This document shows positions 35,631-39,774 of a stretch of DNA of 64,000 bases, one piece after another. Every line of letters begins with the position of its first letter. Position 1 is the first letter of the stretch. Under the pieces are notes generated by a model, which was not told the origin of the DNA, searched no databases, and worked only from the letters and a program-made list of their open reading frames with translations. This DNA is from Rhodanobacter sp. AS-Z3 (lineage in GTDB: Bacteria > Pseudomonadota > Gammaproteobacteria > Xanthomonadales > Rhodanobacteraceae): assembly GCF_029224025.1 (NCBI RefSeq), contig NZ_CP119392.1:1015001-1079000 (forward strand), given 5' to 3'. A program made the translations under genes and the position numbers.

Positions 35631-38617
<2,987 letters not shown>

Positions 38618-38805
38618 GTGCCGGAGGATGGCCGGGCATCCGCAGACTGTCAAGCTGGATGGGGGGAATGCAGCATCCATGGCGTGGCTTGTGCCGTATG
38701 CACCAGCGGGCCCCTAAAATGCTGCACAAAGGTGTCGCTCGTGACGTGCTGTGAACGTAACCGCACGCAAACTGCTACCGAATGGGAGAAGACTGGACAG
38801 TTTTC

Positions 38806-38834
38806 TTGAATATATGTACCATTCAGTTCATTAA
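38806..38834 (+). promoter_or_regulatory. Candidate sigma-70 promoter of rpoH
   Basis: TTGAAT (38806-38811) and CATTAA (38829-38834) are separated by 17 bases in an AT-rich stretch within otherwise GC-rich DNA. Transcription would start near 38841, just before the CIRCE operator. Position and spacing are good; the -10 match is only fair. Confidence 0.5.
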
Positions 38835-38856
38835 AAGCCCGGAACCAACCCCGGAC

Positions 38857-38883
38857 TTAGCACTCCAATTATCCGAGTGCTAA
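38857..38883 (+). promoter_or_regulatory. CIRCE operator (HrcA binding site) upstream of rpoH
   Basis: TTAGCACTC, nine bases, GAGTGCTAA: a perfect match to the CIRCE consensus. It lies 15 bases downstream of the expected transcription start, 17 bases before the GGAGG site and 30 bases before the rpoH ATG. HrcA bound here would repress rpoH. In the mRNA the inverted repeat could also form a hairpin near the ribosome-binding site. Confidence 0.93.
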
Positions 38884-38913
38884 ACTTTGACGTCATTGCA
38901 GGAGGTTCCACCC

Positions 38914-39774
<861 letters not shown>

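Follow-up and report, generated by a model that had tools for sequence, protein, structure and literature searches.

The window described here is the whole stretch of DNA analysed, 64 kb of the genome of Rhodanobacter sp. AS-Z3. It contains rpoH, the gene for sigma-32, on the forward strand at 38914..39774. The open reading frame that starts with the ATG at 38914 matches the RpoH profile TIGR02392 with 403.6 bits (cut-off 323.1), and it also matches NF005143. A Shine-Dalgarno sequence, AGGAGG, can be read on the same strand at 38900..38905. Ahead of it, at 38857..38883 and again on the forward strand, lies a CIRCE element, TTAGCACTC-N9-GAGTGCTAA, the predicted operator of the repressor HrcA. 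A pattern scan finds it identical to the consensus (0 mismatches, spacing matched), and 30 bases separate it from the rpoH ATG. An earlier sequence-only reading of this DNA had claimed a perfect CIRCE at this place and at this distance from rpoH, and it is borne out in both respects. Nowhere else in the window is there a CIRCE match at up to 3 mismatches, and shuffled sequence gives a mean of 0.02.

On the other side of this region, thiC lies divergent from rpoH, and further open reading frames downstream resemble thiamine genes. A TPP riboswitch (RF00059, 72.8 bits) can be found on the minus strand ahead of thiC, at 38521-38621.

Several promoter-like sequences, all on the forward strand, precede or enter the CIRCE. 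The first is TGGACA-N17-TACCAT at 38794..38822, a sigma-70-like promoter by motif score (9/12), which the same reading had already picked out as a candidate. The second is a sigmaE-type promoter. Its putative -35, GGAACCA at 38841..38847, agrees with GGAACTT at 5/7 positions, and its putative -10, TCCAA at 38864..38868, follows after 16 bases and falls inside the CIRCE. The third is TGC-TAAACT at 38878..38886, which is made up of the right arm of the CIRCE and the next three bases, and which fits the extended -10 pattern TGn-TAnnnT of sigma-70-type promoters. Both sigmaE-type parts were recognized from a class-wide footprint and its association with rpoE, the position of the -35 being taken from the window sequence. 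The extended -10 was recognized by comparing the CIRCEs of rpoH with those of groES.

HrcA and CIRCE are known to control groESL and hrcA-grpE-dnaK. Both an hrcA gene elsewhere in the genome and a CIRCE at groES had been proposed as checks on the early reading, and both are present. The genome has one hrcA (HrcA C-terminal domain, 213 bits, no stops), followed by genes that read as grpE and dnaK in their translations. Over its 4.09 Mb, CIRCE occurs twice at up to 3 mismatches, once at rpoH (0 mismatches) and once upstream of groESL (1 mismatch); the whole-genome scan found none at hrcA at this threshold. The operator and the repressor family are the same at rpoH as in the known systems. The difference is that here HrcA would act on the gene for the opposing positive regulator, and that the operator itself would supply -10 elements. 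The genome (G000) also encodes RpoE (TIGR02939, 319.3 bits, above the cut-off).

A reverse connection, from sigma-32 to hrcA, was looked for in 20 hrcA upstream stretches. No sigma-32 sites above shuffles were found in these stretches, which are mostly coding sequence because PF01628 is the C-terminal domain, and which do not reach the promoters. The scan of the hrcA region in the AS-Z3 genome likewise covered coding sequence.

CIRCE is a regular companion of rpoH within the genus. Thirty-six same-genus genomes were compared, that of AS-Z3 included, and 33 of them have a full rpoH (two have none, and in one it is cut by a contig end). A CIRCE with at most 1 mismatch lies directly upstream of rpoH in 32 of the 33, and in the lone exception (G034) a contig end falls inside the CIRCE. 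Genome contigs were also scanned for a perfect CIRCE followed by RpoH codons, which gave at least 117 stretches, 80 of them listed. Among the matches listed are Dyella, Rhodanobacter, Pinirhizobacter, Silanimonas, Arenimonas, Halieaceae, Woeseiaceae, Rheinheimera, Alishewanella, Alcanivorax, Ketobacter, Kangiella, Thiohalobacter and others. Among the 80 named loci listed, Rhodanobacter glycinis has the nearest RpoH (93.7%). A record titled Klebsiella pneumoniae MAG (L130) also has CIRCE at rpoH and may be a misassigned bin.

The same question can be asked across the class. A survey of 149 genomes, nearly one per family, gave an rpoH match in 139 and an hrcA match in 110. With the AS-Z3 genome excluded, 139 rpoH upstream regions of about 420 bases each were taken from 138 genomes; two rpoH copies were counted in G088, and a second, weak match in G135 (175 bits) was dropped. 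CIRCE at up to 3 mismatches is present in 94 of the 103 regions from genomes with hrcA, and in 5 of the 36 from genomes with no hrcA match (Fisher p 7.6e-18, kinship ignored). In 49 of the 94 the match is perfect. Best matches at 4 or 5 mismatches do not occur in any region, while a reversed-pattern control gives one at 4 and four at 5. Conservation upstream of rpoH, which had been suggested as a further check, is therefore found at genus and at class level, in step with hrcA. Of the outcomes that would have counted against the early reading, neither of the two that genomes can show, a missing hrcA or an element not conserved in relatives, has come about.

Among the nine regions that lack CIRCE in spite of hrcA, G155 carries a variant whose spacer is 8 bases long, and G088 has a CIRCE at its other rpoH copy. 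In G072, where CIRCE stands without an hrcA match, the gene was possibly missed, since a genome of the same genus has hrcA.

A search over 80 genomes of the phylum provided 30 rpoH loci. In twelve further genomes of the class, outside the survey, rpoH is not preceded by CIRCE, and hrcA is absent from all twelve, as the rule predicts. In another class of the phylum, hrcA is found in 10/10 genomes and CIRCE at rpoH in 0/10, the best CIRCE match at these loci having 6 to 9 mismatches. Because these ten genomes have hrcA and no CIRCE at rpoH, hrcA alone does not predict the element. At least in this sample, the wiring of rpoH to CIRCE is a property of the class to which Rhodanobacter belongs; ten loci from the other class are too few for a rule, and Geobacter, discussed below, is an exception in print.

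When the 99 CIRCEs found at rpoH in the survey are aligned, three parts are conserved besides the arms, and the remaining flanks are near random. The first part, positions -15 to -9, reads G53 G60 A71 A65 C69 T56 T46 (in per cent). The second lies in the spacer, with T at position 10 (69%) and A at position 12 (76%). The third follows the right arm at positions 28-30 (A68 A76 T89%), so that TAAAAT spans 25-30. Together with the end of the right arm it forms TGC-TAAAAT, which we take to be an extended -10. A -35 of the form TTRGCA is indistinguishable from the operator arm. At positions 37-38, where transcription would start, A is mildly enriched (42 and 48%). The first two parts, read together with T8 and C9, give GGAACTT-N16-TCTNA, a sigmaE-type promoter; canonical sigmaE sequences are GGAACTT and TCAAA (PMC4890791).

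The presence of these parts follows the regulators in different ways. A GGAACTT box (at least 5/7) is found in 66 of the 85 rpoH CIRCE regions from genomes with an RpoE match over the cut-off, leaving 19 of the 85 without it, and in 1 of the 14 from genomes lacking one (p 6e-7). The background is 4 of 40 groES regions and 5.5% of shuffled flanks. Of the 67 boxes, 54 stand at the identical offset, and at rpoH both the box and the extended -10 keep a fixed register with the operator. When the complete sigmaE promoter is scored with a higher threshold (9/10), 53/85 regions with rpoE and 1/14 without it reach that level. A12 also follows rpoE (70/85 vs 5/14). T10 does not track rpoE (58/85 with it, 10/14 without), and neither does T30 (75/85 and 13/14). 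In the 80 named loci listed, some of which may duplicate survey genomes, the box is present in 62, T30 in 78, T10 in 47 and A12 in 67.

The sigmaE box is absent from five loci of Rheinheimera, Alishewanella and look-alikes (L076, L090, L111, L118, L135), though both CIRCE and the extended -10 precede rpoH there. In Kangiella (L128) and in G067, G106, G182 and G200, a second, partial CIRCE-like repeat of the GTGCTAA or GAGTGCTA type lies near the rpoH CIRCE, possibly making a double operator.

The CIRCEs of groESL serve as a control. Forty groES regions (L320-L359), mostly on long contigs, were chosen from genomes that have hrcA and a CIRCE at rpoH. All forty have CIRCE upstream of groES, with 0 mismatches in 28, 1 in 9 and 2 in 3. 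Their flanks differ from those at rpoH in all 40 cases, with a TTGAC-type -35 and TATTA just ahead of the CIRCE, and in all 40 genomes examined the CIRCE comes after a separate promoter. T30 is present in 6 of the 40, against 88 of the 99 at rpoH (p 6.7e-17), and the extended -10 pattern in 6 of the 40, against 87 of the 99. The groESL -10 (TATTA) overlaps the first base of the CIRCE, and a conserved C ahead of TTGAC might also suit sigma-32.

One could suppose that T10, A12 and T30 reflect a preference of HrcA at the rpoH site and are not promoter elements at all. That T10 is not tied to rpoE would agree with this. The groES CIRCEs in the same genomes, however, do without all three bases, and A12 tracks rpoE. 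In addition, three genomes with no hrcA match (G203, G125 and G047) have arms that are partly erased and still keep the -35, the sigmaE -10 and TGnTAAnnT. An HrcA preference is accordingly a quite improbable source of these bases, and they are better read as parts of promoters.

In the window itself the parts differ in quality. Where a sigmaE promoter has GGAACTT and TCNNA 15-17 bases apart, the window has GGAACCA-N16-TCCAA; its -35, at 5/7, is weaker than the class consensus, which agrees well with the sigmaE pattern. Same-genus copies of the -35 vary between GGAACC, GGAACT, CGAACC and TGAACC, and GGAACTT itself occurs in two of them (L060, L063); it is also present in several Dyella rpoH loci among the matches listed. 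Since the window's -35 is imperfect and the copies in the genus vary, the putative sigmaE promoter is the weaker claim for this genome, while the CIRCE and the predicted extended -10 are the stronger one.

The weak sigmaE -35 of the window would suit a different scheme. Here the CIRCE would lie in the rpoH leader, and HrcA would be a roadblock acting only on the upstream promoter at 38794-38822, the elements within the CIRCE being due to chance or mere relics. The upstream promoter is conserved in the genus alignment (29 sequences, with the short L035, which ends with its contig, omitted), which also speaks for such a scheme. Across the class, on the other hand, the 99 rpoH sites conserve the embedded elements and show no conserved promoter-like block upstream of -16, and the difference in T30 between rpoH and groES would be hard to place. 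The roadblock as the sole mode of control is for these reasons unlikely. The sequence-only reading, which had placed the CIRCE in a leader behind a sigma-70 promoter, is right about the promoter in this genus; its leader fits poorly with the class-wide conservation in and around the CIRCE. Our estimate, drawn from the position of these elements, is that rpoH transcription would start inside or just past the CIRCE.

A further alternative places the action of the inverted repeat in the mRNA, where it would govern stability or serve as a heat switch. The rpoH mRNA of E. coli has a thermosensor, transcription from the upstream promoter would take in the whole repeat, and the leader with CIRCE folds somewhat better than shuffled versions (z -2.04; 7/200 as good), while the fold without CIRCE does not (z -0.41). 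The CIRCE hairpin nevertheless stops 16 bases short of AGGAGG and forms no pairs with it. Early codons are the pairing partner of AGGAGG in the lowest-energy fold, both in the presence and in the absence of CIRCE, and in the three leader stretches folded no CIRCE structure hides the Shine-Dalgarno sequence or the start. Of the 65 arm pairs that have changed among the 99 sites, 24 are broken and 38 have turned into G-U, with Watson-Crick double changes in 3, so compensation is rare. The presence of CIRCE also tracks hrcA, which encodes a DNA-binding repressor. A role in RNA is therefore highly improbable, and the switch near the Shine-Dalgarno sequence that had been suggested for this locus finds no support.

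The reading preferred here is that the core promoter of rpoH contains a built-in HrcA operator, and that HrcA would gate rpoH by covering the core promoters. We give this a probability of roughly 70%. What the genomes show is the elements themselves, the constant register between them, how well they are conserved and how they track hrcA and rpoE; from this we infer the binding of HrcA, repression, use of the promoters and the logic of control.

Under this gating by HrcA, the repressor, activated by GroE and seated on CIRCE, would cover both the sigmaE-type promoter and the extended -10, and it would also block RNA polymerase arriving from the upstream promoter. When unfolded protein draws off GroE, or when heat inactivates HrcA, rpoH and groESL would be freed at the same time, and rpoH would become open to sigmaE. 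As GroE accumulates, HrcA would shut both again. GroE is reported to keep HrcA active, and to release it when GroE is drawn off, in B. subtilis, C. trachomatis and H. pylori, and in the last of these an overlap of HrcA sites with core promoters is described as well (PMC6032397). The activation by GroE in the present scheme is taken from these other bacteria and would have to hold here as well. Both hrcA and rpoH are reported to rise when Xylella is starved of nitrogen (PMC3224663), which is a poor simple fit with the model.

The survey also gives a view of rpoH promoters without CIRCE. Among the 40 rpoH upstream regions that lack CIRCE, a sigmaE promoter (at least 9/10) is found in 8 of 15 with rpoE and in 1 of 25 without (shuffles 2.5%), and 5 of those 8 have no hrcA match. 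TGnTAnnnT is in place in 4 of these 9 regions with a good sigmaE promoter and absent in 5 (shuffles 1%); one of the 4 is the G155 variant, where hrcA is still present.

No HrcA match was found in E. coli K-12, and its rpoH upstream region has GAACTT-N16-TCTGA, with the same N16 spacing as here. This site is on our reading P3, the E. coli rpoH promoter driven by sigmaE (PMC8103513). The difference is that there is no CIRCE there, whereas at the locus described here the candidate -10 lies inside a CIRCE.

These observations lead to a broader proposal, to which we would give even odds as a whole. A three-input rpoH promoter may be the default in the Gammaproteobacteria that keep hrcA: about 46 bp would serve at once as promoter for sigmaE, as housekeeping promoter and as operator for HrcA, and HrcA would veto both the envelope-stress and the housekeeping input unless GroE is overloaded. 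As part of the same proposal, the E. coli scheme, sigmaE at P3 and no veto, would be what remained once hrcA had been lost and the operator had eroded.

A CIRCE near rpoH has been predicted before, in Geobacter sulfurreducens in 2004, at -51 of rpoH (PMC545781). Both are perfect CIRCEs near the rpoH start, the first base here being at -57. In the available part of that source the element is listed for one species, without a promoter overlap or a class-wide rule. In the literature searched, as far as the accessible text of each source extends, this is the only paper found to place CIRCE at rpoH, and an overlap of CIRCE with a sigmaE promoter was not found. Novelty is claimed only for the composite promoter, against that literature; who first placed CIRCE at rpoH in this class is uncertain, as earlier surveys may list rpoH.

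The HrcA repressor and the sigma-32 activator belong to two well-known heat-shock circuits that are usually treated in parallel. Should the prediction prove correct, the two circuits would be wired in series in most members of the class that carry hrcA, and sigmaE, the factor for envelope stress, would feed into the same short piece of DNA. That would make E. coli a derived case, and the series of eroded operators would illustrate how a lineage may lose HrcA and yet keep a working rpoH promoter.
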